Assembly: GCA_016285835.1 (NCBI GenBank)
Contig: JAEERM010000004.1
Span: forward strand, 1-64,000
DNA length: 64,000 bases
From: Fibrobacter sp.
Lineage (GTDB): Bacteria; Fibrobacterota; Fibrobacteria; Fibrobacterales; Fibrobacteraceae
Direction: 5' to 3'
Positions 3,468 to 61,877 of this stretch are shown here, piece by piece. Position 1 is the first letter of the stretch. Each line of letters opens with the position of its first letter. Made by a program: the position numbers and the translations under genes. Below the pieces are notes generated by a model. The model was not told where the DNA came from. It saw only the letters and a list, made by a program, of their open reading frames with translations, and searched no databases.

Positions 3468-3481
3468 ATGAGAGTTAATTT

Positions 3482-11684: not shown

Positions 11685-11942
11685 AACATCCTTTCCTTCT
11701 AAAAAAAGTGGATTCACCTATCCCAACGTAAAAATAGATATTATTTGTGAATCTTCCTTGTAATTTATTTTGATACAATTCAACGGGTTACGTACAAATC
11801 CGCGAAATACGTTCAAAAACAAGGAAAATCCGTTTTTTTCAACACATTATCACCCAAAATCCGTGATTTGTGTCACCGGAGACGTGTGAGCGAGCACATA
11901 AGAAAAAAACATTTTACACGCGGCAAGGATAGAAACAACAAA

Positions 11943-43027: not shown

Positions 43028-43693
43028 TCACTCCACATCGAACATTTTCATCGGCAGCAAATGCCTCTGTTTTGCTCTCAGCACTTCTAAAACAACCGTA
43101 CTTTCGCCGCCTTGAGGCGCGGAAGTCTTTATCGTCACCTTTTTGAGGGTTCCCGGTAGCGGGCAGGAGTTATCGCAATACTCAAACTCGCTTACGGCAT
43201 TGGCCCCGTTCAAGACCACGTTCATCTTCATCACTCGCTTGTTTTTCTGCGAGTAATAAAGCGTCGGCTTGGCCGGGTCCTTGGGAGTAATCTTCCAGAG
43301 TTTCCCTTCGGCGACAGGGTTATTATAGTCTTCGGGAGAACCCATCTGTTTGTTCACATCGGCTGGGTTCTGCGCAGGCATGTTCTGCGCCGGGAGTTTT
43401 TTCCCTGTTTTCAAGTCCGTGACCTTCATGCGTCCGTTGTTCTGCACCATTTCCATCTGCATCATGCTGGACTTGATGGTTGTAATGGACTTGTTTTCAC
43501 CAGCGGTAAGCAGGGCCATATTCACAACCTGAGGCTGCATATTGGGAAGCGTCACCGTGGTACGCATCTGCATCTCGCAAGTGTCCGGAAAGGCGGATTT
43601 CTTCTGATTCTCGAACACCGTCTGCAAGCTAAGCGCATACCCTTGGATGGCAACAAAAGAAACTGCAGCGAAAATTTTAATCACATTGTTCAT
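43028..43693 (-). CDS. Secreted protein, outer-membrane lipoprotein-sorting-like fold
   Basis: Signal peptide; LolA-like beta pattern; no firm family signature. Confidence 0.45.
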   Translation of the reverse strand: MNNVIKIFAAVSFVAIQGYALSLQTVFENQKKSAFPDTCEMQMRTTVTLPNMQPQVVNMALLTAGENKSITTIKSSMMQMEMVQNNGRMKVTDLKTGKKLPAQNMPAQNPADVNKQMGSPEDYNNPVAEGKLWKITPKDPAKPTLYYSQKNKRVMKMNVVLNGANAVSEFEYCDNSCPLPGTLKKVTIKTSAPQGGESTVVLEVLRAKQRHLLPMKMFDVE

Positions 43694-43703
43694 AATTCTA
43701 TCC

Positions 43704-46700
43704 TTACAGCAAAGAAAGCTTCTTTGTCGATTTAATAGACCCGTTCACCTTGAGCATCAAGTAAGTTCTATTCATGTCGATGCCGTTCCAGTCAACTCGC
43801 ACAAACTGTTCACCCGGAGCGAGCGTCCCACTAAAGATAGATTTTACAGGCGTACCCAAAGCCGTCACCAGACTCAGTTCCACATAGGACCAGTTGTCCA
43901 TCGTGATAACGAGTCCTTCAGGCGTACGGATTATAGGAACGGATCCAGGTGCATGGTAGCCGAAATCGACATTATATATGGAATCCGGATTGACTTCATC
44001 CGGAGCGGGCAACGCCCATACAGGGGTATTGCCGTAGAGCATGTACCCCGTGGAATCGAACACGCAGATGCCGCTAGCTACGCGCATCATCATTCCCAGA
44101 CCGTCGTGACTCGGGTCGTCATTCGCATTCCACATCGCAGCCCAGCCCGGCAGGTGCAGCGCGACCTTCACTGGATTCTGCCACGTCTTGCCAGCGGCAA
44201 GCGGCTTGTCACAATGGACAGTCACCTGCCAGCGACCAGAACCGAGGCTTTCCATCGAGGCGGACGCACATTCGGACTTGTCGTTGATTTCATAATCCGG
44301 CGCAAGGCCTTCTTCCACGAAGAAGTAGTAGCGCACGTCGAAGTTCTTCAACGAGACATTACCCGTATTTTCCACATTGAAGTGAATCTCGCTCGCCTGG
44401 TTGTCGCCGCGCATATCGGCAGCAAGCACGCGGACCTTGGTTTCGAGCGAAACAGGATCTTCCATCTCGGCGCAGGAGCCGCCAATCAGGTTGTTGTCCT
44501 TATCCAGGACGACAACGCCCGCATCCTCGTAGAACCCATCGATATTCGCAACCAATCCGGAATTCGGGTCCACGAAGGACGGGTCGTCGGAAGCACTCCA
44601 CGGAGTAAAATCGGAATTATAGAGACCGAAATGCGGGCCGTCACCACCGAATACTGTTCCGGCAACCGGTATCGTCTCGGCAAACGCCCATTCCACGTAA
44701 CCCGTGTTGGCGCTCTCGGAATGAACCGCAGGGAATGTTGGTCCGTAGTTCGGCCAATAACGGTCAACTCCAGCCTGCGAGGCGTCCTCGCCACGGAAAT
44801 AGTAACGGACAGAGAACCCATTCACGGGCTCATTGGACACGTTGCGCAGGCGGATTCTCGGGCGGAGCGTAGATGTTTCCGGGTATCCCTCGTAGCGCAA
44901 GTACGACTTTATCTTGCGAACCGTATCGACAGGCACAATTCCGGCAACCTTGTCCGAGGTACTTACACCCCAGGCAATCATCGAGGCCGGAATATTGGCG
45001 GTCGTGAGAGCCGCTCCGCCGATCTGGATACCGGCAGGAACCTTCAGCGTCAACGTATGCGTACCCGCCGCAAGATGGACGGATACACCAGAAACAGCCA
45101 CCGCACGCCAGGTATTGGAAACGGCTGCCATTCCGGCCAGCATGCTTGTTTCGCCGACATAGACCGGCTTATCGCCAGCCGTAGCGGACCTTGCGTACAA
45201 CACGACATTGTAATCCGCGGTATTTTCAACGATTACCGACATCGCGAGTGTCGCCGAATCACCCGATACAAGGTACTTGTTACCGGCTACGGAGCAGGAG
45301 AACTCATTCGAGAATCCGCTCACCGCCTCCATATCCTTCACGGCGATGACGATGACATCGGAAACCTCCCCCGCATCGGTGACGGGTTTCGATAGTTCCT
45401 CGACTTCAGCAGCAGTCAACGCACGCGAATACATGCGGATGTCAGCGATATTCCCGAGATAGGACGGGTCACTACCGGTCTTGCCCATGGAGAACGCGCC
45501 CTCCAGTTCTCGCTCCTGTGAAATTCCGGAATCCCGGACTTTCTTCAATTCACCATCGACATAGAACTTGACATGGGCAGAATCAACGGTCACGACGACA
45601 TGCGCCCAGGATTTCTCGCTAATCGGGAGCAGTTCCGATTCCCAGGAATGGGAACCCTCGACTAGTTTCAGCACGCCACCGCGCTGCATGAGTTTGATAT
45701 CGAGGCCGTTCACACCGGCAAAGCCGAGAACCCTGCGCCATGTACTGTAGCCGGAGCCACGCTTGATGCGCGCCTCAAACGAGTACGAAGGAGTACTCCC
45801 AAAATCGACCAAGCCATTGCCGGATGCGAAATCTGTACCCCTGCCAAAATACAAGCCGACATCGCTGCCCCAAGGCCTACTCATATTTGACAAGCCAAGA
45901 TTATGGCCCGTACCGAGCAGTTCATGTGCTATCTTACCGCTGCTTTCACGTGCCGGATACCACAGGGCAAGTTCCGTCGGATATGGATACAGCTTTTCAT
46001 CCGAAACATATTTCTGCTCCGCATGGTTGTGACCGTAGTCTTCCACACGCATTTCCATGGAGAGGTAGCAGCCGGTACATTCGGCAAGCTGCTTTCGGGA
46101 AATACGGACACTTGCAGACACATGACCGGCAGAATCAGGCATCACGTTCATGACACGCAACGTATCGCCCCCGAACACCGGCGTCACTATCACGCGTGCA
46201 ACACCCGACTCGGAGTCATACACATCCGCAGTCGCCGTAAAGATTCTGTCAAGGACCTCGGAAGAATCCTGCACAGAGAAGTTCCTGATGGCAGGACGTA
46301 GAGAATCCGTATAGACTCGCGGACCGGCAATCTGCATATCCATACCGAGAGCGGAAACGCCCACGTAGCGCGATTCATAAATTCCGGACGCAATCTTGCC
46401 CAGGCCGGACACCCCAGAAGTCTTGGAACCATCATAGATTACAGTATCGGGGATTTCGCCGCGAATTTCCGCCACGACTTTTCCATCACGATAGAGCGAT
46501 ACCAACCCGTAACCCGGATGCGTACAGCTGGCACCATAGGCCATATAACCGTTGTCAAGGCCCAGCCACAACGAATCGGACGGAACGGAGCAAGCAAACT
46601 GCGCATTCACAGTCAAAGCGCGAGCCACAGCCGGAGCTGCAGGGAGTTCTTCCATATTTCCATCCGCATCAGGTTCACCAAGGGCAACCACGAATACGTA

Positions 46701-49700
46701 GCTGGTATCAATGGCGTTACCACGGGAAGGCAAGGCGATTCGGGCAAAGCCGTTGGAATCCGCAGTAAAAGCGAGAGTATCCGGCAGAGTAGAATCGCCA
46801 CGATTGGCCCACAGCGAATCATCATCTACGTAAAGCCTAAATCTCGATATGCCATCTACACGGACCGTGCGGTTTGCAGTCGAAGCAATTTCTGGCAGGA
46901 CAGTCACGCTGAAGTTCGGAGTTTCCGCAATGGCGGAATCCATCGCCGTAAACACGGAGAATGTTCTTGTCTCGGCGGAAATCAGCAGGTAGGCCCACTG
47001 GGTCTTATCCGTATAACATCTTTCATCCGTTGCAGTCGAACATGCCGCAACAGTATCAGAAGCTCCTTCAACAAGGGCCTTGCCAAACTTATCAAGATAG
47101 CCATAAAGAACATCTGTAAGTGGAACAAACTGCTTATTTGCAAAATCAACCTTATACAGCCTTACCGTTTGCGGAGTCGCATGCATAGCCTCCATCTCTT
47201 CATAACTTATTTTCATCTGAATTCGTGGCCGCGCAGTATCAGCAAACGTCATTCTCGGCAAAACTTCTACAACCGGACCCTTGAGAGCAAGGTTGTTGAA
47301 TACATCAAACGAGTAATCCGACGCTTCGACTGTTCTGACAGTAATATTCTTCTTGCCGCTAATGGAATGTTCAGGGAAAGTTACGCTAACTTCCTCGAAC
47401 AGCGACTTGACCGTCTTATAGTCAGTCGAATCTACCAAACGACCTATAACCATGTCAAACTTGCTAAAGTTGAACATGGTGCCGTCATCATCGCCCCACA
47501 AAAGCATAAGTTGCGTATTTCCTTGCAACCTATTCACGTCAAACCAGCCCAAACGATACCAACCGCTTGAGTCTGCCCTCAAAGAATCTCTCCATACCGA
47601 ATCAAGCATGGTTTTGGGATATGCGTAGAAGGCTTCTCCGTTCAGATATGCAAGCCGGTAATTTACCCCACTATCCAGATAAGCCCTGACCTCGACAAGT
47701 TCCTTCGGGCGTTTAACAGTAATTGAATCTGCATCCCTAAACTTCACCAGCATATTCAAGGAATCTGGGAATTTTCCATCAAGCAACAAATGAGAATGCT
47801 TACTGGAATCCAGCTGCATCAGCTCGGCACTATTCACCACGACATCATTCACCCATGCGTCATCATTCCTGTAAATTTGATTCATCGTCAACGTATCAGA
47901 CTTAGGACGAACAGGAGACTTCGCAAGAGGATCCTTCGACATGCGGTAGAACGTATCCACAACAAACGAATCAGCCTTGATATAGAGTATCTCGGCATTG
48001 CCCGACAGACTGAGCTTTGATTCAGGAACCTGAATATTGCTCAAATCCACCTTAAGCGATTCAACCTTCGCATGCACACTGCCACCAACAAGTTCACTAT
48101 TTATTTTCACAGCCGTATCAAGTCGAATGTAATATCGATGCGTTCCATTGTCGTAATCATCCGAAGAAGGCCTGACAGTGAACGCCGCATCTTTCTTGCC
48201 TATTTCCGACGCCATGACGACATTCATATACAGGAAATCCTGTGGAGAATTGAAGACTCGGCTCGTCGCATTCTCGATATTGTTTATAACAGAATCCCCA
48301 TGAATAATCAGGGAAGACCAGACCGAATCCGTATAGTCGCCATAATAATAATGGGCTCGTGAACCAAGATTGTAATACTTGTAACAAAGGGACACTCCGT
48401 TATTCACAAAATTCCAGTCCTGGGCGCTATCCTTACATACCGAGTCCTTGGAGGCAAAAAGGACAGAATCCTTGACAAGTTCAGTTACACTTTTCGGAGC
48501 CGGATACGCAATCGAGTCACGATGCCTTACGGAACTCCAGCGGGTATTGCGACCGACAAAGAATTCCACATTCGTGTTGGCGGCGAAATAAGGGGTATTC
48601 TTGACCGTATCGGAAAGTCCCGAATATTTTATCTCGCAAAAACCGGGTATGCCCATTGCACCAAGAACATTTGTAGGGTCAAAATTGCACTGATCGGACG
48701 GCTCGTTGATATCTATAGCGCCCAATACTTTCGCCTCCAAAAAATCGTCCGCACTACTTGGAGTATAGAAGCGCAAGTCAAAACGCGCGGCCTGAGAATA
48801 GGCGGAATCCTCATCCGCAAACAGGAACGTGTTCAGTCCGCCCTCAAGATAGCTCGACGGGAAATAATGCAGCCTTTGCGTCTCAAACGGAGTCAACAGG
48901 CCGTACGTCTTGTCGAACTTCCACTCGTTTCCGTCATGGTACGAACCCATGCCGACAAAGAAATCGTCGCTTTTCACCCTTCTTAAACTATCCAATGCAG
49001 CCCAATAGCCATTGCCATCATTACCGAATACGGTCTTGTTCGTGTGGTCGAAACGGACAGTACGGTTCACAAGGTTGTCCATGCCGAAGGCCGCGTTCCA
49101 ATAAGCCGTGTCCGGAATTGTATAGGTAACATTAAATTTTAGCACCGTATATGCAGCATAATTATCCGCTGTAGGGTTTATTACACCATACCCAGTGTAA
49201 TATTTCCCATCTACCCCAGGATTGATCTCTATTTTAAACAAATTTGCATTCATGTCATATGCCGCATCACCATTCACGCACACAGAATCCAAAGTCGAGT
49301 CGCTCTTGCACCCTACATCAGCGACATCAAACGAATATCTGGGTCCGCAATCATGCCCATAACTTTCGTACGGACTAGGGAATTTTATTTCCGTTCCTCT
49401 TGAAATTTTGTCAAGAGTCCATACTTGATACGGGCTTAGCTTTATGGGATTGTAGCTTATATCGTCAAGGGGCGATTTATTGTATGCAGGATGTTCATCC
49501 AAGAATTTTTTCCATCCGGAAAGCGTAAATACAGTTATGTCATAGCCATTTTCGTCATATTTCTTGAAATCATATCCATAATAACCATGAGCATCATTCG
49601 CTCTCTTCGACTCAGTCAAGGTTATAGTCTTTGTCATCGAATTAAAATGAAGCGTATCTACAAAAATCCGTTCATGCTGATTCGCATCCTTTTTTTCACA

Positions 49701-52700
49701 ATCTGTCAAAGGATACCAATCACCGCAATCAACATAGAACGTATTGTATCGCAAATAGCGGACTGCGACAAGCTTTAATTCCTTCCTATGCCTCTTGATG
49801 GCAAGGCTAAACCTCTTCGGTTCATAACCGATTATCTCCTGAGACCCGGAAATCTGCCCGGTCAGGGGAATTTCGCCTTTACGCAAGGAGTCGGGCAATT
49901 TCCATCCGGAAAGATTGGCTTTCACCAAATAATCAGCAACCGGCTCGTAACGATACGCGTCAACCCTGCTATCGTATAGGGCTTCCGAAACGTGGATGGA
50001 AGGAACAGTGATTTGCTCATTTTTCGGATGGTCCGGAGTCATGTCCAGCATAGTCTCGGCATGCTTAACCTTGAATACGGCCTCGGCCGTCGTGGAATTT
50101 TCACCATCCGTCGAATTGGCAACAATCAAAAGTTTGTATTCACCTATTTCCAGTTTGACATGCCCCAGGCTATCCTTCCCGTTCCAGCTGATTTGGTAGG
50201 CGGTATCACTAGAATTCGCGCGCACCACCGTGGAAATATTCTGCAACTCGACCGTATCGGAACCGCTTACCACATAGATACCTACATTGGCATCCCTGTT
50301 CTTGATTCCGTATTTCGCGACCATCGTCCTAAGCCACAGGACCCTTTTTTCACATGCATTCTCGTCGGTCGTATCCGACTTGCATACCTTGGTCGAGTCA
50401 TTTTTCAACAACACGAAATCAGGCAACGTATCCGCAAGCGAGATTCTAAGAGAATCCGGCACAATCACAACCGTGGCCGAATCAAGGAACACGTGCGGAT
50501 TGGAAGAGACGTTCTCCGTAACCTCCGCATGAATCGTCATCTTGCCCGAAGCGGGATATTTTCCCATCTCAGTTGTGCCGGTCCAGGCATACGTCAACCC
50601 ATAGGCACGAGGATTCACGCTCCATCCCATGACCAGTGGATTGAGGGTATCACTACCGATTTGACCGTCGGCAATCCAGTAGAAGCCGTCAACATCGCTG
50701 CTTCCGAAATAGGCCTTCATTTTCGGCAAGGTCGAATCACCGTAAAGGGCCGCTCTAGATACGCGGAACGCTTCCGTAGCCGTCATCACCGCATGTCCGG
50801 AATTCCCAAACAAGAACATCTCGTGGCTAATTCTTGAAGGCGGAATCCATTCTGGAAAATCTTCCAAATAGGAATTTATGGTTGCCGAGAACAGCCCCAT
50901 GTCAAAGGCGACCGGCCGTGATTCACAACCGCTGTAACTGCAAACATTCCCAAATCCAGCCGAATCATAGGAAACCTTCAAGGTATCGCCTGCGGCAAGA
51001 CCTTTCCACTTCAAATGATACTGACCATCCAGTTCGTAGAACCATACGGCAGAAGAATCGGACGAAGTATCAGCAGGAGCCCCATAATAAGGGTTGCGCC
51101 ACACCTTCGACACGGACTCGTCAAACATGCCGACATGCTTTGAATCCTCCGCATACACGCGCAGGAAATAGCTGCCGTTAAACTTTCCGGACTGGTATAG
51201 CGACAATCTAAGGGTATCCGTCCCTATATGCATGGCGGTATCGGGGCTCGCCGAGAAACGCCAGTCAGGAACATCATTGAACAGTGAATCCCGATTCTCC
51301 CCTAGCAAGATCATCGACGTATCCGTTTTCCACAAGCTATCAGGACCATCGATACAATTTTCTCCGGCACATACTCCAAGTTCTATGGCAAACATCCCTT
51401 CCAGATATTTATTTTCACCAATCTTGCGGTCAAGATAGCCCAGCACTGCATCGTTGCTCTGCGAAACCTTGGAAACATTTCGATGCGAACTGTTCTGCAA
51501 TGCGGAAACGACAAAGATATTGGATGTTTTCCACTCAGGGGTGCTGTCCGTGCCCAAGGAATCAATATTGGCATACCTCAGCCTGTAAACAGTGTTCAAG
51601 GAGTCCGCAAGCTTGACTGGCGGAGCCACGCCCGTAATGGCAACAAGCGATGTATATACGGCTGAATCGCGAGGGGACGAGATTACCGGAGTCCGTTCAC
51701 CAATGAAGAACAGGTCGGTCTTCACGGAAGCGTTGCCCGCAGCGTCTATGCATACGGCATCAAGATAACACTTGCCGCGCATATCTCCAATAGAATCCAG
51801 ATTGAACGTGGCCGAATCGTTCTTCAGCGTCTTGTCCGATATTCTTTTCCACGAAGTCGTCCTTCCGGAGCCACTCACTTGATAAAAGCAGTTCATGCCC
51901 GTACGGTTGGACACGACATCCTGTCTTTCGTTCACAACAATTTTCGCCGAGTAATTCCTGTCGGAATCCGGATATACCAGCTTGGAACTCACAAGGCTTT
52001 CGATATACGGGGCAGTCTTGTCCACACGGAGTTTTTTCTGTAGCCTGTAAAGCGAATCGTTCTTTGCAGCATCACGTACAAGGGCGCGTATTTCGTAGTC
52101 GCCGTCTTCAAGACGCATACCGGCCATTTCGGTCCACGACGTATCCGCAATATCGCCGGACTTCACCAGGACGGAGTCTCCCGCATGGTCTATCTTCGTC
52201 GGATCTCCGTCATGAACAAATTGCCAGGCTACCGTCACGGGTTCCGAATCGCGACCATCCAGCAAATCTCGCACGACATACGATATTTTCAGCAGGCTAT
52301 CATACGAAGCGTAGGCAAACGACGGATTTCGCGCAGGTTTCCTGTCTTGCAGTTGCAGATAAGGGGCCCCCGATGAAGAGACCGCCTCAAGTCGCGGATT
52401 GACCAGTCCAGGACGCCTCGTATCGACGAAGAACGTATCATACACCACGGAAACATTCAGGAAATCGTTCGAATCGGGCCATGACGATTCGGAAACATTT
52501 CCCGGGCTTCCGACTATGGCAGAAACAAGACCGTTCATTTTCGTGTAGGTATTTTCATCAGGCACGGCATTGTCCACCGCATAGGTCCTAATTCTATAAT
52601 AGCCGTCTTTGCCCCTGACAGAATTACGCACCGCGTTGTTCCACTGAATCGCAAACTCCGGAGTACACACATCATACAGGGCCGGGAAATCCGCCACTCG

Positions 52701-55700
52701 CGAATAGCTCGAATTCCTAGAATTGCCGTTCGCCTTTTCCAGGGAAATGCGCATGGCCCGGATATCGGGACTGTTCGCCGAATCCGCCCATGCAAAGCGG
52801 GCCAAGAACGGAATGCTGTCCGGATTCACCATCTTCCCCTCGGCCACAATATTGAATATGGGGGCAGTCGTATCCACGCTGAACGATACATTGTAAGTGT
52901 TCGACGAATCTTTACTGGCCGTATCGGAAACCATGTTGCGAATATCCGCCACGAACTCCCAGTGATATTTGCCCTCGGCAGGATGGTCTTCCTCCCATTT
53001 CGATGTAAAATATGCCGTGGATAAATCCTGAAGACGCCCCGTAGAATCACGTGTCGTGTCAACGTACGATTCGTACCCCATCGACATTTCTTTCGAAGAA
53101 TCGGGCGCAACATTTGTATCGCCAGATTCCAGCACTATTTTGTCCTTTGCACCCATGACCCTGAATCCTTGGTATCCGAGAGCGCTAGCATAGGCCTTGA
53201 AGTTCTTTATTTTGTTCAGCACCATGTTGTACTGCGGCCATACAGGGTCAAGTTTATTCGCCGTAGCCTTGAACAGGTAGTAGAATCGCTGCGTATTGGA
53301 AAGGCCAATCTTGTTCACCGTCGAAATCGTGACCGTATTCTGGTTGTCTTTCTGGATAGCAAGCAAATTGTTGTAGCCATATTCGCCCGGCACAAAATCG
53401 AATTGACCATTTTTCTTGACGGGGTGAGGTACCTTGTCAATTGTTATCCTTCGTTCAATTTTTCCACTATCCGTTTCCACAGAATCTACGATCACAATCG
53501 GGTTTGTCCAAGCACCTCCACCAGAGCGTCCATAGACAGTACAGGCATCATTAGCCTCCGGACTCTTCGATATATCGCACTCCCATGCGATTTCCTCCTG
53601 ATAGTTAAAATTCATACGGATTTGACGGAGGCGATGAGGCATTAAATCATCAACGACAAAAGAGTACTTGTTTATCCAGTCCTCGACCGTAATCGCGGGA
53701 ACTTCGTAACGTTCCACATGACGGATGGGGACACCACCCGGATTATCGCTACCATCAGGCTTTAAGCCATCCACCTTTTCCCAGCGGTCCACCTTCACGC
53801 CCATCTTGGACCAGTCGGATTCGGAATGGAATTTCAAATCGCCCTTTCTAAACTCTGAATAATTCTTTTTCCCATTCGATGCAACAACTTTTCCATCGGC
53901 ACCGTACAGGCCAATCTCGCAAAGTTGCTGTTTGTTTGCATCGTCAGCCTCATAGTAGCACCCCGGTTCTACAGCCCGCAAGGTTGAATCCGACACAAAA
54001 AGTCCCAAGTTTACGAACGGCTTTTCATAGAGAAAATTTTCCATAAGGTAAGGAGTGACATTCTGCGACTTCCCTTGGATCTTTGAATAATTTTTCATTT
54101 CACCAAAATGACTTCTATGAAAATCTAAATTTTTCGGTATATCATGAGATTCTATCAAATCCTGAACTCCTAAATATGTTGATGCAGTTATTCCCCCAAC
54201 CAAGTATAGTGAGCCGGTCACTCCTATAGCAACTTTAGCCGCAGCAGCACAGGCGGAACACCAAATACTCAACGCGACATCCGTCGCAATCATGGACAAG
54301 CCAACAGGTGTAAAGATATCAGTAAAAATATTCTGGTCTCCCGTTTCTGCATGAACAGCAGCATTATATGTTTTTCGAACGATATCCACCTTACCAGATT
54401 CTAGGGCATCAGTATTGCTAGCAAGGCCAGACGACGTGGGTATTAACGCCGACCCGTTTTCCTGAACAGTAATGCCAGCAATCCCTAGCAAAAAGCCAGT
54501 TTCAGCATTAACCACTCTAACTGTCGTAGAACCATCTCCTCCAAAAAAGTGATAACCAGCATTCATCAATGGCACACTAATGATTTCAGGTACAACCAGA
54601 TTGAAATACTCCCTAAAAGACGAATTCGGATCCGTAAAAGTCATGCTGTTTTCCGATCCCAACAGTCTTGCCATTGGAAACGTGGAGTCAGCAGCCCGTC
54701 CCTTCAAGTTATTAATTCCAGAACTCTTCTTTTCTGGGTCAATATAGGCTACAAGCCCATCGTCATATCTATAATCATAGCCATGATCCTCAAAATACAA
54801 GTTCCACGCCAGTTCTTTGGCGACCTGTTGCAAAGCATCACCACCAAAACTAACGGCCATCGTTATCAATGTTGGATAAATAACCGAAGGCGTTTTACCC
54901 ACAGCCAGCAAAGCAATTCCCGCCGCAGACATTCCGGCATATATACTGCTAGAAAAACCGTCTCCCAATTGATGCCTCCACTCATCCAAATCAAGAAGAG
55001 CGTTCAACGCTCCCGTTCCCTCATGAGGACTATCAAGAGTCACAAACTTATCAACATCCCTCTTGTAGTTTGGGCCCTGCACATACTCGCGAATTGCCAC
55101 ACCACCCATGCTATGGCCGACGAGGATATTGCGGGAAGGGATGGTGCGGTATTGATCGACGGGACTCTCGCGGAACATTTTCAAGGTATCCTGCCCATGA
55201 GCCTTGAACTCCTGGGCCTCCTCAATAAGCGAACGACGAGCAGAGCATTTATTTGCTCCCTTCCAGTTTGATTGACCGATTTCGTTTCCATTAAGCGCAG
55301 GAGATCCTGCAGGATGTACAAATGGACGTTGGAGATAAGCAGCATTCGGAGTATCGAAAAGCTCGTCGTTCAGGAAGGGAACCATTTCCTTCATCATGCC
55401 AGCAGCCGTTCCGCCAATTTTACCGCTAGACATTTTAACCCCACCAATACGGGCAGGATTGTAGTACGCCGTATCGCATCTCGTAAATACGGAATCCTTC
55501 ACTGCACCAGAATTATCGGCATCAGGAACTTGAACGGTGTCTGGATGGCACGTAGACGCATCTGTAACAATACCTTCTCTTGAATTATATGATTCTTCAT
55601 AATCTCTCCCGTTAGCTCTAGGATCACCATTTTCACAGTCCAATCCCTGCCATCTGTCTGCGGCACCGTGTACAAGCACTACGTTGTACCTGTTCACACT

Positions 55701-55772
55701 TTCCATGGGCCAAGAGGCGTACAAACTATTTGCTAGAACTAAGGCAAACAAGACTATTATTTTCTTTTTCAT
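43704..55772 (-). CDS. Giant (4022 aa) secreted protein: N-terminal lipase-like alpha/beta-hydrolase, Ig-like repeats, LamG, carbohydrate-binding-like modules, C-terminal sorting domain
   Basis: Signal peptide; VVLVHGAADRW; ILVGHSMGGVAIREYVQ; LDSPHEGTGALN; LamG-like SWAHVVVTVDSAHVKFYVDGELKKV; terminal YVELSLVTALGTPVKSIFSG...RTYLMLKVNGSIKSTKKLSLL. Confidence 0.8.
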   Translation of the reverse strand: MKKKIIVLFALVLANSLYASWPMESVNRYNVVLVHGAADRWQGLDCENGDPRANGRDYEESYNSREGIVTDASTCHPDTVQVPDADNSGAVKDSVFTRCDTAYYNPARIGGVKMSSGKIGGTAAGMMKEMVPFLNDELFDTPNAAYLQRPFVHPAGSPALNGNEIGQSNWKGANKCSARRSLIEEAQEFKAHGQDTLKMFRESPVDQYRTIPSRNILVGHSMGGVAIREYVQGPNYKRDVDKFVTLDSPHEGTGALNALLDLDEWRHQLGDGFSSSIYAGMSAAGIALLAVGKTPSVIYPTLITMAVSFGGDALQQVAKELAWNLYFEDHGYDYRYDDGLVAYIDPEKKSSGINNLKGRAADSTFPMARLLGSENSMTFTDPNSSFREYFNLVVPEIISVPLMNAGYHFFGGDGSTTVRVVNAETGFLLGIAGITVQENGSALIPTSSGLASNTDALESGKVDIVRKTYNAAVHAETGDQNIFTDIFTPVGLSMIATDVALSIWCSACAAAAKVAIGVTGSLYLVGGITASTYLGVQDLIESHDIPKNLDFHRSHFGEMKNYSKIQGKSQNVTPYLMENFLYEKPFVNLGLFVSDSTLRAVEPGCYYEADDANKQQLCEIGLYGADGKVVASNGKKNYSEFRKGDLKFHSESDWSKMGVKVDRWEKVDGLKPDGSDNPGGVPIRHVERYEVPAITVEDWINKYSFVVDDLMPHRLRQIRMNFNYQEEIAWECDISKSPEANDACTVYGRSGGGAWTNPIVIVDSVETDSGKIERRITIDKVPHPVKKNGQFDFVPGEYGYNNLLAIQKDNQNTVTISTVNKIGLSNTQRFYYLFKATANKLDPVWPQYNMVLNKIKNFKAYASALGYQGFRVMGAKDKIVLESGDTNVAPDSSKEMSMGYESYVDTTRDSTGRLQDLSTAYFTSKWEEDHPAEGKYHWEFVADIRNMVSDTASKDSSNTYNVSFSVDTTAPIFNIVAEGKMVNPDSIPFLARFAWADSANSPDIRAMRISLEKANGNSRNSSYSRVADFPALYDVCTPEFAIQWNNAVRNSVRGKDGYYRIRTYAVDNAVPDENTYTKMNGLVSAIVGSPGNVSESSWPDSNDFLNVSVVYDTFFVDTRRPGLVNPRLEAVSSSGAPYLQLQDRKPARNPSFAYASYDSLLKISYVVRDLLDGRDSEPVTVAWQFVHDGDPTKIDHAGDSVLVKSGDIADTSWTEMAGMRLEDGDYEIRALVRDAAKNDSLYRLQKKLRVDKTAPYIESLVSSKLVYPDSDRNYSAKIVVNERQDVVSNRTGMNCFYQVSGSGRTTSWKRISDKTLKNDSATFNLDSIGDMRGKCYLDAVCIDAAGNASVKTDLFFIGERTPVISSPRDSAVYTSLVAITGVAPPVKLADSLNTVYRLRYANIDSLGTDSTPEWKTSNIFVVSALQNSSHRNVSKVSQSNDAVLGYLDRKIGENKYLEGMFAIELGVCAGENCIDGPDSLWKTDTSMILLGENRDSLFNDVPDWRFSASPDTAMHIGTDTLRLSLYQSGKFNGSYFLRVYAEDSKHVGMFDESVSKVWRNPYYGAPADTSSDSSAVWFYELDGQYHLKWKGLAAGDTLKVSYDSAGFGNVCSYSGCESRPVAFDMGLFSATINSYLEDFPEWIPPSRISHEMFLFGNSGHAVMTATEAFRVSRAALYGDSTLPKMKAYFGSSDVDGFYWIADGQIGSDTLNPLVMGWSVNPRAYGLTYAWTGTTEMGKYPASGKMTIHAEVTENVSSNPHVFLDSATVVIVPDSLRISLADTLPDFVLLKNDSTKVCKSDTTDENACEKRVLWLRTMVAKYGIKNRDANVGIYVVSGSDTVELQNISTVVRANSSDTAYQISWNGKDSLGHVKLEIGEYKLLIVANSTDGENSTTAEAVFKVKHAETMLDMTPDHPKNEQITVPSIHVSEALYDSRVDAYRYEPVADYLVKANLSGWKLPDSLRKGEIPLTGQISGSQEIIGYEPKRFSLAIKRHRKELKLVAVRYLRYNTFYVDCGDWYPLTDCEKKDANQHERIFVDTLHFNSMTKTITLTESKRANDAHGYYGYDFKKYDENGYDITVFTLSGWKKFLDEHPAYNKSPLDDISYNPIKLSPYQVWTLDKISRGTEIKFPSPYESYGHDCGPRYSFDVADVGCKSDSTLDSVCVNGDAAYDMNANLFKIEINPGVDGKYYTGYGVINPTADNYAAYTVLKFNVTYTIPDTAYWNAAFGMDNLVNRTVRFDHTNKTVFGNDGNGYWAALDSLRRVKSDDFFVGMGSYHDGNEWKFDKTYGLLTPFETQRLHYFPSSYLEGGLNTFLFADEDSAYSQAARFDLRFYTPSSADDFLEAKVLGAIDINEPSDQCNFDPTNVLGAMGIPGFCEIKYSGLSDTVKNTPYFAANTNVEFFVGRNTRWSSVRHRDSIAYPAPKSVTELVKDSVLFASKDSVCKDSAQDWNFVNNGVSLCYKYYNLGSRAHYYYGDYTDSVWSSLIIHGDSVINNIENATSRVFNSPQDFLYMNVVMASEIGKKDAAFTVRPSSDDYDNGTHRYYIRLDTAVKINSELVGGSVHAKVESLKVDLSNIQVPESKLSLSGNAEILYIKADSFVVDTFYRMSKDPLAKSPVRPKSDTLTMNQIYRNDDAWVNDVVVNSAELMQLDSSKHSHLLLDGKFPDSLNMLVKFRDADSITVKRPKELVEVRAYLDSGVNYRLAYLNGEAFYAYPKTMLDSVWRDSLRADSSGWYRLGWFDVNRLQGNTQLMLLWGDDDGTMFNFSKFDMVIGRLVDSTDYKTVKSLFEEVSVTFPEHSISGKKNITVRTVEASDYSFDVFNNLALKGPVVEVLPRMTFADTARPRIQMKISYEEMEAMHATPQTVRLYKVDFANKQFVPLTDVLYGYLDKFGKALVEGASDTVAACSTATDERCYTDKTQWAYLLISAETRTFSVFTAMDSAIAETPNFSVTVLPEIASTANRTVRVDGISRFRLYVDDDSLWANRGDSTLPDTLAFTADSNGFARIALPSRGNAIDTSYVFVVALGEPDADGNMEELPAAPAVARALTVNAQFACSVPSDSLWLGLDNGYMAYGASCTHPGYGLVSLYRDGKVVAEIRGEIPDTVIYDGSKTSGVSGLGKIASGIYESRYVGVSALGMDMQIAGPRVYTDSLRPAIRNFSVQDSSEVLDRIFTATADVYDSESGVARVIVTPVFGGDTLRVMNVMPDSAGHVSASVRISRKQLAECTGCYLSMEMRVEDYGHNHAEQKYVSDEKLYPYPTELALWYPARESSGKIAHELLGTGHNLGLSNMSRPWGSDVGLYFGRGTDFASGNGLVDFGSTPSYSFEARIKRGSGYSTWRRVLGFAGVNGLDIKLMQRGGVLKLVEGSHSWESELLPISEKSWAHVVVTVDSAHVKFYVDGELKKVRDSGISQERELEGAFSMGKTGSDPSYLGNIADIRMYSRALTAAEVEELSKPVTDAGEVSDVIVIAVKDMEAVSGFSNEFSCSVAGNKYLVSGDSATLAMSVIVENTADYNVVLYARSATAGDKPVYVGETSMLAGMAAVSNTWRAVAVSGVSVHLAAGTHTLTLKVPAGIQIGGAALTTANIPASMIAWGVSTSDKVAGIVPVDTVRKIKSYLRYEGYPETSTLRPRIRLRNVSNEPVNGFSVRYYFRGEDASQAGVDRYWPNYGPTFPAVHSESANTGYVEWAFAETIPVAGTVFGGDGPHFGLYNSDFTPWSASDDPSFVDPNSGLVANIDGFYEDAGVVVLDKDNNLIGGSCAEMEDPVSLETKVRVLAADMRGDNQASEIHFNVENTGNVSLKNFDVRYYFFVEEGLAPDYEINDKSECASASMESLGSGRWQVTVHCDKPLAAGKTWQNPVKVALHLPGWAAMWNANDDPSHDGLGMMMRVASGICVFDSTGYMLYGNTPVWALPAPDEVNPDSIYNVDFGYHAPGSVPIIRTPEGLVITMDNWSYVELSLVTALGTPVKSIFSGTLAPGEQFVRVDWNGIDMNRTYLMLKVNGSIKSTKKLSLL

Positions 55773-55779
55773 ATTTGAT

Positions 55780-56637
55780 TTACTCGTGATTTAAAGGGGC
55801 AAAATAACGTTGATCGCGGTATCTGGCTACTGGTTCCTTGGAAATTTGCCAGTTACTATCGGTCGAATATAAATACCACCCATCTTCTTTCATTCTGCTT
55901 ATATAACGTCCATTAAAACGTTCATGTCGTTCATCATAATCATTAGGCGGTTCTTCATAAAAAGTTGATAAAGTGTCAACCCCATTGCGCACAATAGAAA
56001 AACTAAACTTATTCGGATACAAAACGATTGTAAACAAATCATCTCCGAAATATTGCGCATCATCTACATCATCGGGCCAACCAGCCTCTTCCTTCGTAAT
56101 CTGCGTGATTATATTCGCAGCAGTGTCTAGCAAAGCAAATTTGTCATAATACTTGAAAAGAAATTTGCCGTTTTTCCATGTGCGCATAAGCGCTGCGTTA
56201 AGGGATATAGGCAGTCGTCCGTTCTCCCATTTGGCTTTTTTTAGAACCGGATTTTCTTTTATCTTCCAAAAATAATATTCAAACCATTCGTCTCCGTTTC
56301 GGCCTAAATACAATACTGTAGAATCACTTAGCGGTTCAATCTTCAAACCAGAACACGAATCTATCAATCCTTCCCAATAACAGTATTCCGTTCCACGAGT
56401 ATCAACCAACCGCATTCCCATCTTGGTACATTCTTCCCAATCAGCCCCACTATGTCTTTCATAATGATCATAATAATACACAGCCAAAAGAGCAGTTGTA
56501 TCGCTAACCATAACAAAACTACCCTCCTTCCTTGAACCTGATTCAAGAAATCGAACATCATCTCCACATCCCCACATGCTTACGCACGAAAATGCGAGCG
56601 CCAAAACAGCTAGCAACCTTTTAATTTCAACCATCAT
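55780..56637 (-). CDS. Lipoprotein paired with the giant lipase-like protein
   Basis: MMVEIKRLLAVLALAFSCVSMWGCGDD; near-perfect Shine-Dalgarno AAAGGAGGT upstream. Confidence 0.75.
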   Translation of the reverse strand: MMVEIKRLLAVLALAFSCVSMWGCGDDVRFLESGSRKEGSFVMVSDTTALLAVYYYDHYERHSGADWEECTKMGMRLVDTRGTEYCYWEGLIDSCSGLKIEPLSDSTVLYLGRNGDEWFEYYFWKIKENPVLKKAKWENGRLPISLNAALMRTWKNGKFLFKYYDKFALLDTAANIITQITKEEAGWPDDVDDAQYFGDDLFTIVLYPNKFSFSIVRNGVDTLSTFYEEPPNDYDERHERFNGRYISRMKEDGWYLYSTDSNWQISKEPVARYRDQRYFAPLNHE

Positions 56638-56745
56638 AAAGGATACCTCCTTTGCCACCTATCCACAACCAGACACAGCCCAGAAATATGTGACAGCAAT
56701 CACACACAAATATACTCTATATTTTGTACAAAATCAAGCAATACT
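56638..56745 (-). promoter_or_regulatory. Duplicated 5' region (promoter/RBS) of the lipoprotein-lipase unit
   Basis: Highly similar to 61770-61877: shared GGTGGCAAAGGAGGTATCCTTT, GTGATTG, ACAAAATATAGAGTATATTTG. Confidence 0.65.
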
Positions 56746-59145
56746 GTAGAATCGTTGTGTATTGGAAAGGCCTATCTTGTTCACCGTCGAAATCGTGACC
56801 GTGTTCTGGTTGTCCTTTTGGATTGCCAACTTATTTGTTATGCCATAATCATCGGGAATAAAATCGAACAGGCCATTTTTCTTGACCGGATGACGAACAG
56901 TCTTTTTCGGCTCGCCCCAAGGTTCGCCAGCACTACGCTGATATACCTTACAGGCTTTGTCATCATCCTCTGCTTTTGTAATATCGCACTCCCAAGCAAT
57001 CTCAGTAACGAAATTGAAATTCATGCGGATCTGGCGTAACCTATGCGGCATCAGGTCATCAACGACAAAAGAGTACTTGTTTATCCAGTCCTCGACCGTA
57101 ATCGCGGGAACTTCATAACGTTCCACATGGCGAATAGGAACATAGTCCGAGGTATCCTTTCCTTCAGGGGTAAGTCCGTCCACTTTTTCCCAGCGGTCCA
57201 CCTTCACGCCCATCTTGGACCAGTCGGACTCCGACTTGAAACGGAGAGGCGTTGTCAAGCCCGAAAGGGATTGATTCTTATGGGTCAACGTCAAGTCATT
57301 AGGTGATTTGAACAAGCCCAAAGCACAGTTTACTCCATTCTTTGAACCAATGTAATAACAGTTGCGGTTCAAGGTAGATTTTTCACGGGCTGTAGAGGAC
57401 ATTCCCTGAAGTTGGTTCAATGTCGCCGTATCGTTCAACGCCAGGTTCACGAAAGGACGCTCATAGAGAAAGTCTTCCATGAGGTATGGGGTATAAGAAG
57501 AACCCTCTGACAAACCAATCGGAGAGAAGGTGTTCTTTGCAGCCTTCATGTCGTCAAGGTAATTTTTTTGAAGAGGAATACTGTGTGACTTGACAAGGTC
57601 GTAAATTCCCGTAGACAAAGCAGCACCAACATAAGAACTCGCAACCACAGCAGTCCCGATACCCAAAGCAATTTTCGCACCATCAGACACACCTGTCCAA
57701 GCGAAAGCATCAATAAGGAGCATCGCAACCGAGGTGATTTCCAAAATGGACGACAAATCACCAACAGACGTAAAATCACCTAGCATTGTCGCAACTTCGC
57801 CTGATGCAGCAGGAGCCGCATTGAAATATTCACGTTTGACATCAACACGAGTGTCGTTAAGGACACCCACATTTCGTCCTTCACTAGACGCGGCAGGAAC
57901 AATACTGCTTCCGTTATCTTGCATCGGCATCCCGGAAAAGCCAAGCAAAGAAGACACTAGGGCATTCACGGTACGGGCAGACCAATCACCCGTTCCCATT
58001 AGTTGTGCCCCGTAGTTCGCAATCGGGAAAATAAAGTTATCTGGGAGCAAATAGCCAAGATAGTTGAATACGCCTAGATCCAGTAATTCCGGGTCGGTAA
58101 AAGTCATTCCATCTCTACTCGCCAGAATTCTAAACATGGGAAGAGAGTCAACTTTATTTTCAAAATCGAGTTTATTCAACGAGTCAATGGTTCCATAACC
58201 ATGCTGAAGGGGATCGACATAATGGACCAAGGGATCATCGTAATAGTATATTTCGGGAGCGAACGCATATGCCAAAGCATTGCCAACTTCTTCAATGGCA
58301 AATACTTCGGCCATCATCACAATTCCAGCATAAATTGCGGGCTCTGCACCTTTCGATAAAAACAAGGTTGTCGCAAGGCCCGCAACCAACGGAGCGGCCT
58401 TTAAAAAATTCGTACATGTCAAGTTCCAGAAAGATTCTTCTCTTATACTCTTTTCAATCAACATGTTCAACGCACCAGTGCCCTCGTGCGGGGAATCAAG
58501 CGTAATTATCTTATCCACATCGCCATTGTAGAAGTTGCCTTGCACGTACTCTCGGGAAACGACTCCGCCCATGCTGTGACCAATAAGGATGTAGCGGGAT
58601 GCCAGTTGTCGATAGAGGTCGGGATTCTGACGGATAATTTGGAGAGCATCTTGACCTGTATGAGTTGAATCATTCACGGCATCATACCAAACAGCCTTCA
58701 CTTCCTGAGCTTCTTCAAACAGCGTACGGCGATGCTTGTATTTTGTATCCTTTAAAATCCACGTTCTATCACCCATTTCGTGGGCGTTGTTCAGCGAAGT
58801 GTTCGCCGGATTCGAAAAAGAGCGCCAGTTGTACACATAGGAATTTTTAACATAATCTTCTTTCTCTGTCCATCCCGGTTCTTCAAGAATCTTTGTGGAC
58901 ATCCAATTCGTAATGCGGTCACTATTGTCATAAGCACCTAAAGTTGCTCCATTTTCAAGGGAAGTTCCTGCATAATAGGCCTCGTTGGTATCCTTTTCGT
59001 CTAAAAAGCCTTTTTCCGCACCATACGCCCCATGGATAACCATCACATTATAGTTTTCAATAGACTCCATTGGCTTGGGAACAGACCAACACGCATTTGC
59101 AATAACAAGCAGAACTATTATCAATTTTTTCATTTTTCTTACCAT
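56734..59145 (-). CDS. Secreted lipase-like protein, truncated paralogue of the giant protein (803 aa)
   Basis: Signal peptide; VMVIHGAYGAEKGF; ILIGHSMGGVVSREYVQ; ITLDSPHEGTGALNML; C-terminal ~200 aa near-identical to the giant, then ends RFYSIA*. Confidence 0.8.
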   Translation of the reverse strand: MVRKMKKLIIVLLVIANACWSVPKPMESIENYNVMVIHGAYGAEKGFLDEKDTNEAYYAGTSLENGATLGAYDNSDRITNWMSTKILEEPGWTEKEDYVKNSYVYNWRSFSNPANTSLNNAHEMGDRTWILKDTKYKHRRTLFEEAQEVKAVWYDAVNDSTHTGQDALQIIRQNPDLYRQLASRYILIGHSMGGVVSREYVQGNFYNGDVDKIITLDSPHEGTGALNMLIEKSIREESFWNLTCTNFLKAAPLVAGLATTLFLSKGAEPAIYAGIVMMAEVFAIEEVGNALAYAFAPEIYYYDDPLVHYVDPLQHGYGTIDSLNKLDFENKVDSLPMFRILASRDGMTFTDPELLDLGVFNYLGYLLPDNFIFPIANYGAQLMGTGDWSARTVNALVSSLLGFSGMPMQDNGSSIVPAASSEGRNVGVLNDTRVDVKREYFNAAPAASGEVATMLGDFTSVGDLSSILEITSVAMLLIDAFAWTGVSDGAKIALGIGTAVVASSYVGAALSTGIYDLVKSHSIPLQKNYLDDMKAAKNTFSPIGLSEGSSYTPYLMEDFLYERPFVNLALNDTATLNQLQGMSSTAREKSTLNRNCYYIGSKNGVNCALGLFKSPNDLTLTHKNQSLSGLTTPLRFKSESDWSKMGVKVDRWEKVDGLTPEGKDTSDYVPIRHVERYEVPAITVEDWINKYSFVVDDLMPHRLRQIRMNFNFVTEIAWECDITKAEDDDKACKVYQRSAGEPWGEPKKTVRHPVKKNGLFDFIPDDYGITNKLAIQKDNQNTVTISTVNKIGLSNTQRFYSIA

Positions 59146-59148
59146 ATA

Positions 59149-60036
59149 TCAATACTCAACAACCACCTCATCATCTCGATAAAACTTTAATTCATTACCT
59201 CTCCATGTTACATCAGAACAGGTAATTGAATCATCTTTTATGCTACAGATGTTCCCATTCAGTTTAATCATATCACCCCAAAAGCCTCCAATTGCAAATT
59301 TTCGAGGTGCGGAAATCGAGTCCTGTTTGTTTTTTAAAACAAGACTTTTTTCTCCTTCACTATCAAGGATTACACAATACACTTCATTCCCCCAAGCCCT
59401 AACATCGTCACATTCCTTTATCCATTCCAAGCCCTCATCCAATCGCTTGTAGGTCAGCGTTCTTGCCACCGTATCCAAGACCGCATAATTACAGGTATCG
59501 GCATCGGCGGCCAACGATTCGCCACTCCTACCTATAAATGTTCCGTCAAGCCACTGCTTTAATGAGCTTATCCTAAATTCAACAGAACAACCTTCACTCT
59601 TTTTTGTCAATTTTATTTCATGCGGTCTTTCGCCTATTTTCCATAATTGAACAGATTTCGAAACTTCACCACCCCAAATCACAGAATCCGCCATCTGACC
59701 ACCAAATATCCCAGTCATGTCCTCACTTGAAAGCGAATCACACCATCTTGGACCATCTTCCTGGACACGGTAATTATAAACACACAGGCGTTCGCGGCCA
59801 CAACCGTCTAAATCAATATATTCGCCATTCCACCGATCCGTAATTTCACTCCAACACCGATAATCCCCAACCATAACCAAGGAATCATCAACGAAACCAA
59901 CAACCTTCGCCCCACTGCGACCAGGTTCCCAACGGAAATCCACATCAGAACACCCCCACATGCATATGCATACAAACGCCAGCGTCAAAACAGCAAGCAG
60001 TCTTTCAATTTCAAACTTGTTCAACAGATGTTTCAT
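59149..60036 (-). CDS. Lipoprotein paired with the 803-aa lipase-like protein
   Basis: ERLLAVLTLAFVCICMWGCSDVDFRWEPGRSGAKVVGFVDDSLVMVGDY. Confidence 0.75.
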   Translation of the reverse strand: MKHLLNKFEIERLLAVLTLAFVCICMWGCSDVDFRWEPGRSGAKVVGFVDDSLVMVGDYRCWSEITDRWNGEYIDLDGCGRERLCVYNYRVQEDGPRWCDSLSSEDMTGIFGGQMADSVIWGGEVSKSVQLWKIGERPHEIKLTKKSEGCSVEFRISSLKQWLDGTFIGRSGESLAADADTCNYAVLDTVARTLTYKRLDEGLEWIKECDDVRAWGNEVYCVILDSEGEKSLVLKNKQDSISAPRKFAIGGFWGDMIKLNGNICSIKDDSITCSDVTWRGNELKFYRDDEVVVEY

Positions 60037-60887
60037 GCTCTGTTCTCCTTAAACCTTTTTTGCGCTTTTTTATTACAAAATAATAGCAAACCAAGTTGCA
60101 TGTTGAGCGCACCCGTTCCCTCGTGCGGGCTATCCAGCGTTATGATTTTATCAACGTCCTGATGATAGTAATCGCTATTTTGCACATATTCACGAGAAAC
60201 TACACCGCCCATTGAGTGACCGATAAGGATATAACGTGAAGCAAGTTGGCGATATAAATCAGGATATTTACGTATGGAATCGAGGGCAGTCTGTCCGTAG
60301 ATGTATTTCCTTTCTGTAGAATCATATACTGAAGCTTTTACTTCTTGGGCTTCTTCCATCAAAGCCCGACGACGACCAAAACCACCTTTACCATAATTTA
60401 GATTTCCTTTATTCCAAGCTCTATCGCCCAATTCGTGTGCATTATTACTCGAACTATTTGCTGGATTAGAAAAAGAACGCCAATTGTATATGTACGAATT
60501 ACGAACATTCTCATACTCTTTACTATATATTTTTTCCTCAAATACTTTTTCATTGAGCCATCTCGTTATCCTACTATCCGATGTATAAGACCCCAATGTG
60601 GCTTTTCCCAAAAAAGTCGTATCATCGTATGCAGACGGAAGAGCCGTATCCAGTGCATCAATCACATCGTCTAAACGAGTTCTTATTTCAGACTTGAAAT
60701 CTTCATACCCATAGGAATCTTCCCAATAATCTTCAGACATATGAGGCCATATAAAGCCTTTGTTCCAACCATAAGCTCCGTGCACCATCAAAACATTGTA
60801 GTTTTTAATAGATTCCATCGGCTTGGGGATGGACCACGAATCACAAATTAAAATCAACACCAACAAAAAGACAACATACTTTTTCAT
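60033..60887 (-). CDS. Truncated lipase-like paralogue (284 aa)
   Basis: VLMVHGAYGWNKGF; ILIGHSMGGVVSREYVQ; ends HEGTGALNMQLGLLLFCNKKAQKRFKENRA*. Confidence 0.75.
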   Translation of the reverse strand: MKKYVVFLLVLILICDSWSIPKPMESIKNYNVLMVHGAYGWNKGFIWPHMSEDYWEDSYGYEDFKSEIRTRLDDVIDALDTALPSAYDDTTFLGKATLGSYTSDSRITRWLNEKVFEEKIYSKEYENVRNSYIYNWRSFSNPANSSSNNAHELGDRAWNKGNLNYGKGGFGRRRALMEEAQEVKASVYDSTERKYIYGQTALDSIRKYPDLYRQLASRYILIGHSMGGVVSREYVQNSDYYHQDVDKIITLDSPHEGTGALNMQLGLLLFCNKKAQKRFKENRA

Positions 60888-60890
60888 ACA

Positions 60891-61769
60891 TTACTCCAAA
60901 TCAACGACGACTTCATCATTTTGATAGAATTTTAAAGGTTCTCGCCATGTAAAATCAGGATTAAGGCATATAATTGCTTTCGCTTCTAAACGGCAGATGC
61001 TAGCACGAAGTTCAATCATCTTACCCCAAAAAATACCCCTACTAAATATCAAGGGTGAAGAAAGTGTATCGATATTATTTTTTAGAATATGGCCTTCAAG
61101 AGGGTGTTCGCCAGGTGCTGAACAATAGACATCCTTCGCCCAAGCCCTTACATCGTCACACACCTTAATCCATTCCAAATCCTTATCTAGCCGCTTATAA
61201 GTTAACATCCCCGAAAGCGTATCCAAAACCGCATACTGGCAACTGTCACCACCGGCATTTAATGATTTATCTCCAAGTGCAATAAATCTGCCATCAAGCC
61301 ATTGTTTCACAGATTTCGTTTTGAATTCTACAGAACAGTTGTCATACGAGATTTTAGGATTTATTATATGCGGTTGTTCGCCAATCTTCCACATTTTGAA
61401 AGACCCCGTTAAGGATCCACCCCAAATTATGGAATCCGTCAATTGTCCGCTGAACCAACCGGAAGCATTTTCTTCGACAATGGAATCGCACCACCTGGGA
61501 CCATTCTCCTGCACTCGATAATTGTATGTACATAGTCTGGGATTTGCGGTTCCATCATCTTCCAAATACTCTCCATTCCAGCGTTCCGTTGTCTCATGCC
61601 AAAAAAGATAGTCCCCAACAATCACAAGAGAATCATCCACAAAACCTACAACCTTGGCATTTCCACGCCCCTGCCACTCAAACGACACTTCGTCCGAGCA
61701 CCCCCACATGCATACGCAAGCAAGTGTTGTCAAAGCAATTACGAACAACTTTTTAATTTCAACCATCAT
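60891..61769 (-). CDS. Lipoprotein paired with the 284-aa truncated lipase-like protein
   Basis: MMVEIKKLFVIALTTLACVCMWGCSDEVSFEWQGRGNAKVVGFVDDSLVIVGDY; same RBS block as 56637 copy. Confidence 0.75.
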   Translation of the reverse strand: MMVEIKKLFVIALTTLACVCMWGCSDEVSFEWQGRGNAKVVGFVDDSLVIVGDYLFWHETTERWNGEYLEDDGTANPRLCTYNYRVQENGPRWCDSIVEENASGWFSGQLTDSIIWGGSLTGSFKMWKIGEQPHIINPKISYDNCSVEFKTKSVKQWLDGRFIALGDKSLNAGGDSCQYAVLDTLSGMLTYKRLDKDLEWIKVCDDVRAWAKDVYCSAPGEHPLEGHILKNNIDTLSSPLIFSRGIFWGKMIELRASICRLEAKAIICLNPDFTWREPLKFYQNDEVVVDLE

Positions 61770-61877
61770 AAAGGATACCTCCTTTGCCACCGATCCAAGA
61801 CAAAAACTTTGTCAAAAAAAACATGACAACAATCACACGTAAATATACTCTATATTTTGTTCAAAATCAAGTATAGT
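61770..61877 (-). promoter_or_regulatory. 5' region (promoter/RBS) of the lipoprotein-lipase array
   Basis: Similar to 56638-56745; AGAGTATATT -10-like block. Confidence 0.6.

Follow-up and report, generated by a model that had tools for sequence, protein, structure and literature searches.

The first 64,000 nucleotides of a Fibrobacter sp. contig (JAEERM010000004.1, assembly GCA_016285835.1), the whole stretch of which is referred to here as the window, carry three tandem gene pairs on the minus strand. Each pair consists of a lipoprotein (LP) gene and a downstream gene for a secreted-looking lipase, and the last lipase, lipC, is a giant of 4,022 residues. We consider it probable that this is an exchangeable polymorphic toxin-immunity locus of reversed polarity, in which the predicted toxin is N-terminal and the putative immunity gene lies upstream. 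A polymorphic lipase/immunity-type system had been proposed in a sequence-only reading of the window, and this proposal is supported, at the level of sequence comparison, by the linkage of the two genes in 86 of 86 cases, the modular co-diversification of the LP with the lipase N-terminus, the position of the breakpoints, and the retention of orphan LPs under purifying selection; the toxicity of the lipase is predicted.

All six open reading frames (ORFs) are present at the positions, in the order and on the strand first described, and the VHGA, GHSMGG and LDSPHEGTG motifs of the lipases and the MWGC lipobox of the LPs are found as claimed. LP-A and LP-C, first read as 61790-60891 and 56658-55780, almost certainly start further downstream, at the ATG codons at 61769 and 56637, since the upstream codons for AKEVSF hold the Shine-Dalgarno (SD) sequence AAAGGAGG. 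The corrected genes span 60891..61769 (LP-A, proposed immunity to a lipA-type lipase) and 55780..56637 (LP-C, proposed immunity to the lipase of the giant), while LP-B, the proposed immunity to lipB, remains at 59149..60036 as first read. The lipases lipA (60033..60887, 284 residues) and lipB (56734..59145, 803 residues) are 3'-truncated relatives of lipC (43704..55772), which was delimited by its ORF and domain search. lipA ends just past LDSPHEGTGALNM in a recurrent tail, QLGLLLFC..KENR, without the remainder of the catalytic domain, and its stop codon overlaps the LP-B start as ATGA. lipB, a displaced copy, retains the full lipase domain and the first conserved stalk block and breaks off after KIGLSNTQRFY. 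In the giant, the variable N-terminal lipase domain (residues 1 to ~640; 53855..55772) is tied most closely to the LP over its first ~200 residues. Within the window, lipA and lipB are 52% and LP-A and LP-B 55% identical, lipC shares 35-40% with the other lipases, and LP-C shares 24-27% with the other LPs. Because the relatedness of the LPs matches that of the lipases and the arrangement recurs in dozens of genomes, the array is not a product of chance.

The distribution of both families was followed across 112 Fibrobacteraceae genomes, sampled at one genome per species. Relatives of the lipase occur in 56 and of the LP in 58 of them; 51 genomes hold both, 5 the lipase only, 7 the LP only and 49 neither (Fisher p ~5e-18). 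In the fetched loci, counting only lipase N-termini with room upstream, an LP ends within 200 nt upstream of the lipase N-terminus in 86/86 cases, which comprise 33 full domains, 18 short copies and 35 remnants. The sequence-only reading had named beforehand, as a ground for its refutation, LPs that are not conserved beside the hydrolases elsewhere; conservation was found at every one of these sites. Giants of 3.6-4.1 thousand residues with at least one displaced pair upstream are present in several genomes (e.g., G062, G103, G082 and G058). A run of three pairs is found in F. intestinalis ATCC 43854 (G098), identified by its contig C9, which matches NZ_FUWU01000105.1 in reverse complement. 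The short lipase copies of about nine genomes share a single end point, LDSPHEGTGALNM followed by a QLGLLLFCSKIRRKSFKENRV-like tail; at the DNA level this tail is the 5' region and SD of the LP gene that follows, with the LP start and the lipase stop codon overlapping as ATGA.

Pairwise identities of the LP and of giant segments were compared across 15 giants. LP identity follows giant residues 1-200 (rho 0.84; 0 of 2,000 permutations) and, to a lesser degree, residues 270-630 (rho 0.53), but not the stalk, for which the values are 0.01 (residues 650-900), 0.03 (900-2000), 0.10 (2000-3000) and 0.13 (3000-4022). The N-terminal segments 1-200, 200-270 and 270-630 correlate with one another (0.64-0.70), as do the stalk segments (0.73-0.89). 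Between the two groups the correlation is -0.08 to 0.12 for segments 1-200 and 200-270 and weak, 0.31-0.37, for segment 270-630. Since LP identity tracks the N-terminal segments and not the stalk, the LP and the lipase N-terminus travel jointly and separately from the rest of the giant gene. The suggestion that LP and hydrolase diversify together is thus borne out in a narrower form, the LP following the lipase N-terminus rather than the remainder of the giant. In a wider set of 49 cassettes, the closest LP and the closest lipase N-terminus coincide in 55% of cases. The first expectation, a variable lipase followed by a stalk conserved throughout, was discarded, as the giant varies along its whole length; only the segment correlations separated module exchange from plain divergence.

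Pairwise DNA comparisons reveal where the exchanged segments end. In G082 and G085 the LP and lipase are 93% identical over 2.5 kb, and identity falls to 69-75% past the lipase/stalk border. The converse mosaic is seen between G069 and G077, in which a near-identical LP promoter and leader and a stalk that is 100% identical over long stretches enclose a mature LP at background identity and a lipase N-terminus of much lower identity. Between an 829-residue lipase copy of G062 and a 258-residue copy of G028, identity of ~99% spans the mature LP and continues up to GTGALN, past which the two are unrelated. At the upstream edge, the lipobox cysteine codon marks a drop in mean DNA identity from 0.75 to 0.35 among 12 short-copy units, and 54 LP pairs combine an identity of at least 80% over the 75 nt preceding this codon with less than 30% identity of the mature proteins. 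The window shows the same edge: LP-A and LP-C are preceded by two copies of a repeat (61690..61871 and 56561..56738, minus strand) whose promoter and SD/leader blocks are 87% and 96% identical, although the mature proteins share only ~27%. A promoter-like site occurs at both copies, yet such sites are no commoner in the region than chance. The end of lipB is a clean joint of the giant-stalk sequence CGATTCTAC with the LP promoter repeat TTGATTTTG (56732..56748, minus strand), at which the repeat provides the stop codon of lipB; the resulting protein end, TQRFYSIA, is also present in G062. At the 3' end of lipA, a conserved block (60034..60220, minus strand) that would serve recombination comprises GHSMGG..GTGALNM, the tail, the SD and the ATGA overlap and continues into the leader of LP-B. 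Judged from these comparisons, each cassette has two sharp edges. The first is the LP lipobox codon, the second either the GHSMGG…GTGALN motif or the boundary between lipase and stalk, and the front end of the lipase is swapped between species together with the upstream LP gene.

LPs also persist where the lipase does not. Of the 104 LPs that are near-complete, only 33 are followed by a full lipase domain, 16 by a short copy, 33 by a remnant and 18 by no lipase; the remaining 4 are situated at the ends of fetched DNA. Many of the remnants measure 32-80 residues, and genomes of 99-100% completeness (e.g., G064, G023 and G030) keep LPs without a related giant. The ratio of nonsynonymous to synonymous substitution (dN/dS) is 0.15 and 0.11 in two orphan-orphan pairs and 0.10-0.13 for orphan LPs compared with a lipase-linked LP of another species; a few other LP pairs give higher values, up to ~0.5. 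These NG86 estimates are rough, some of the divergence may be older than the loss of the lipase, and decayed LPs are under-counted by a search with an LP profile. As far as such estimates reach, they place orphan LPs under purifying selection (dN/dS ~0.1-0.2). An orphan LP of G077 is 91% identical to the LP of the giant of G069, the giant of G077 itself being preceded by a different LP, and an orphan LP of G038 is 86% identical to the LP of the G077 giant. This is the pattern of putative immunity genes retained against the toxins of neighbours.

A PGAP1-like alpha/beta-hydrolase is matched above the Pfam cut-off in each of the three window lipases, and such a hydrolase is present in 32 of 32 lipases examined. 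The nucleophile serine lies in GHSMGG, AHSMGG or SHSMGG. In the numbering of mature lipB in the family alignment, the invariant residues are the serine of HSMGG, the histidine of an (S/N)H motif near residue 498, and Asp194, Asp281 and Asp412. The short copies lack the distal histidine and would be expected to be inactive. In a Foldseek search with the lipase model (pLDDT 77), the nearest structures are secreted bacterial lipases, palmitoyl-protein thioesterase and LCAT/lysosomal phospholipase A2, none of which reaches an E-value of 0.001. The LPs of the window match no Pfam or NCBIfam family, none of 60 aligned family members has a Pfam match, and a PDB sequence search returned no relative. 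The model of LP-B is all-beta at high confidence (pLDDT 92), and with only weak propeller-like Foldseek matches (TM score 0.3-0.4) the predicted fold is at best propeller-like. The LP was not found in 57 Fibrobacterota genomes outside the Fibrobacteraceae; it is a new all-beta family, restricted to the Fibrobacteraceae among the genomes searched.

The lipases carry a signal peptide, as judged by eye. Delivery through a C-terminal sorting domain had been put forward in the sequence-only reading; among the three lipases, only lipC has such a tail. A profile built from the tail of the giant (43707..43970, minus strand) matches a C125 protein (E=0.0018), which is itself positive for TIGR04183 at the same place (27.6 bits). 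Through this protein, the tail is linked to the type A sorting domain of the type IX secretion system (T9SS) as a predicted divergent relative. The source genome encodes the translocon protein SprA (SprA_N above cut-off, in a 2,296-residue frame) and at least 37 proteins matched by the T9SS tail model. The giant is likely exported by type IX secretion; delivery by the type VI secretion system (T6SS) is unlikely because of the signal peptide and the T9SS-like tail. T9SS tails have been proposed for the cellulases of F. succinogenes (PMC6851124). We also note that a 914-residue ORF of the window (8973-11717, minus strand) has a T9SS sorting tail above cut-off, as does a 5,023-residue open frame, larger than the giant lipase (G000:C19:4956-5135).

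These observations can be assembled into a mechanism in which the giant gene would be the expression site, comprising an N-terminal lipase (the probable toxin), a long stalk and a T9SS-type sorting tail. The LP encoded just upstream would be the immunity protein, synthesized before the toxin and staying in the envelope of the producer. T9SS cargo adopts its fold in the periplasm and is exported afterwards, and since the lipase could act there, it would need an envelope-anchored inhibitor; T9SS export and an envelope target are both presumed. As the sorting tail and stalk take up the C-terminus, the exchangeable toxin would have to be N-terminal, and as toxin and immunity must then move as one cassette, the immunity gene would have to lie upstream. 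A new cassette of LP mature domain and lipase N-terminus would enter by recombination, with homology provided at its upstream flank by the promoter and LP leader and at its downstream flank by the GHSMGG-GTGALN block or the border of lipase and stalk. Earlier pairs would stay upstream and accumulate as an array of displaced pairs before the giant, where the lipases would decay and the LPs be retained because they protect against neighbours. As a tentative and rather doubtful extension, the short upstream units may form a silent cassette store from which gene conversion, using the LP leader and GHSMGG-GTGALN flanks, repeatedly reprograms the giant expression locus; a lineage could then switch weapon and matching immunity together, in a single step.

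Several points weigh against the reading as a toxin-immunity locus. The toxicity of the lipase and its binding by the LP are predicted parts of it, and the aspartate position of classical lipases is not conserved in the alignment. TIGR04183 does not match the tail of the giant itself. Many of the genomes, one per species, are metagenome-assembled, and repeats are open to misassembly. The LP and the lipase N-terminus are adjacent, so that joint transfer alone could yield their correlation without direct binding; this weakens the claim of binding, not that of exchange.

The LP could be a membrane-anchored lipase-specific foldase of the Lif type, or an export chaperone for the adjacent lipase, instead of an immunity protein. 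The tandem arrangement with one LP per lipase would suit such a partner, some known lipases require a membrane-tethered foldase, and the Foldseek matches of the lipase include family I.1/I.2 lipases. However, Lif foldases are helical while the LP model is all-beta, and intact LPs persist beside lipase remnants of 32-80 residues or none at all, including in the near-complete giant-less genomes named above, where a chaperone without a client should have decayed; we regard this explanation as improbable. Nor do the orphans favor a nutritional role, in which the giant would be an esterase or lipase acting on plant galactolipids or polymers, the LP a surface partner or a means of self-protection, and the variation an adaptation to substrates. 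The fibrolytic habit of Fibrobacter and the proposed T9SS export of its plant-degrading enzymes (PMC6851124) speak for it, as does one LamG_3 domain in the giant. The latter (residues 3323-3457) is the sole carbohydrate-binding-type module family matched in the Pfam search, whereas the sequence-only reading had described carbohydrate-binding-like modules in the plural; there is no array of them. Purifying selection on orphan LPs, swapping of LP and N-terminus independently of the stalk, and displaced pairs in arrays are not predicted by this role, and the plant-polymer esterase with a surface partner, which had been offered as the alternative to a toxin, explains orphans and swapping poorly; there is little likelihood that it is correct. 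Finally, the array might reflect ordinary tandem duplication and pseudogene decay with nothing exchanged or selected. Several short copies do contain frameshifts or stops and repeats favor unequal crossing-over, but purifying selection acts on the LPs, which are intact, the same junctions recur from one species to another, and identity blocks show swaps between species. This last explanation is very improbable, being already largely refuted by the selection and mosaic data as they stand in the sequences. Orphan LPs and mosaics led to the rejection of both the foldase and the random duplication.

Classical polymorphic toxins such as CdiA-CT/CdiI, Rhs and MafB have a C-terminal variable toxin with immunity and orphan modules downstream (PMC3482391, Zhang et al. 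2012). The toxin-immunity locus proposed here resembles them in its large secreted protein, a predicted toxin module exchanged independently of the stalk (in the 15 giants and the pairwise swaps), a linked and co-diversifying putative immunity gene, displaced and orphan modules, and recombination at conserved flanks. In contrast to CdiA, Rhs and Maf, the lipase is N-terminal and the LP and displaced modules lie upstream, a mirror image of the canonical layout. The locus would therefore work like a polymorphic toxin without being a standard member, its toxin being predicted from sequence. Bacteroidetes TANFOR toxins, from a related phylum, are T9SS-associated large proteins with a TANFOR N-terminal domain, C-terminal predicted toxin domains and immunity genes (PMC7073777, Life Sci Alliance 2020); the giant differs in having its predicted toxin at the opposite end, and TIGR02542 (TANFOR) gave no NCBIfam match here up to E=1. 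A PGAP1-like alpha/beta-hydrolase with a GxSxG nucleophile motif beside an envelope lipoprotein is shared with the Tle/Tli pairs of T6SS (PGAP1-like Tle4; Tle3/Tli3, PMC9860674). Unlike these, the giant possesses a signal peptide, a stalk of >3,000 residues and a T9SS-like tail, and no sequence relative of its LP is detectable in Pfam or the PDB. The gut Bacteroidales keep orphan immunity genes without a toxin, which protect against T6SS effectors of other strains (PMC12247911, PMC10470768). LP genes are likewise kept without a lipase partner and protection by them is proposed, with the difference that orphan LPs adjoin decaying lipase remnants. Lif/LipB foldases are, like the LP, membrane-anchored partners encoded with a lipase; the LP differs in being all-beta and retained without the lipase.

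In the literature searched, no N-terminal polymorphic toxin of this kind and no toxin-immunity weapon system of Fibrobacter was found. If the reading is true, such a system exists in bacteria that are major degraders of cellulose in rumen and gut, with a new geometry, variable predicted toxin N-terminal and immunity upstream, that fits a C-terminal delivery signal of T9SS; the direction of module displacement would then follow from the position of the secretion signal. F. intestinalis ATCC 43854, which carries an array with LPs of the new family, is a culturable isolate, and the idea is therefore open to testing.

Some minor observations concern the neighborhood and further copies. A 221-residue secreted-looking ORF without a significant family match lies directly downstream of the giant (43028-43693, minus strand). 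LP-lipase arrays are often located at contig ends (G084, G088, G015, G014 and G041), so that short-read assemblies probably under-count them. The source genome contains a further LP with a 779-residue lipase copy (L063, G000:C89:26-2365), which ends past KIGLS like the 797-residue copy of G069. Another C-terminus with the tail of the giant (L139, G000:C77:11812-12072) lies near a contig end, and the source genome may therefore contain another giant that the assembly has cut. Giants of 3.6-4.1 thousand residues with the same lipase core also form a second, divergent class (L083, L082, G057:C11, G110:C10 and G055:C35). L083 (G051:C1, ~620100) has no LP upstream, and L082 (G014:C17) has two LPs ~140 bp upstream; the class is possibly an LP-free relative.

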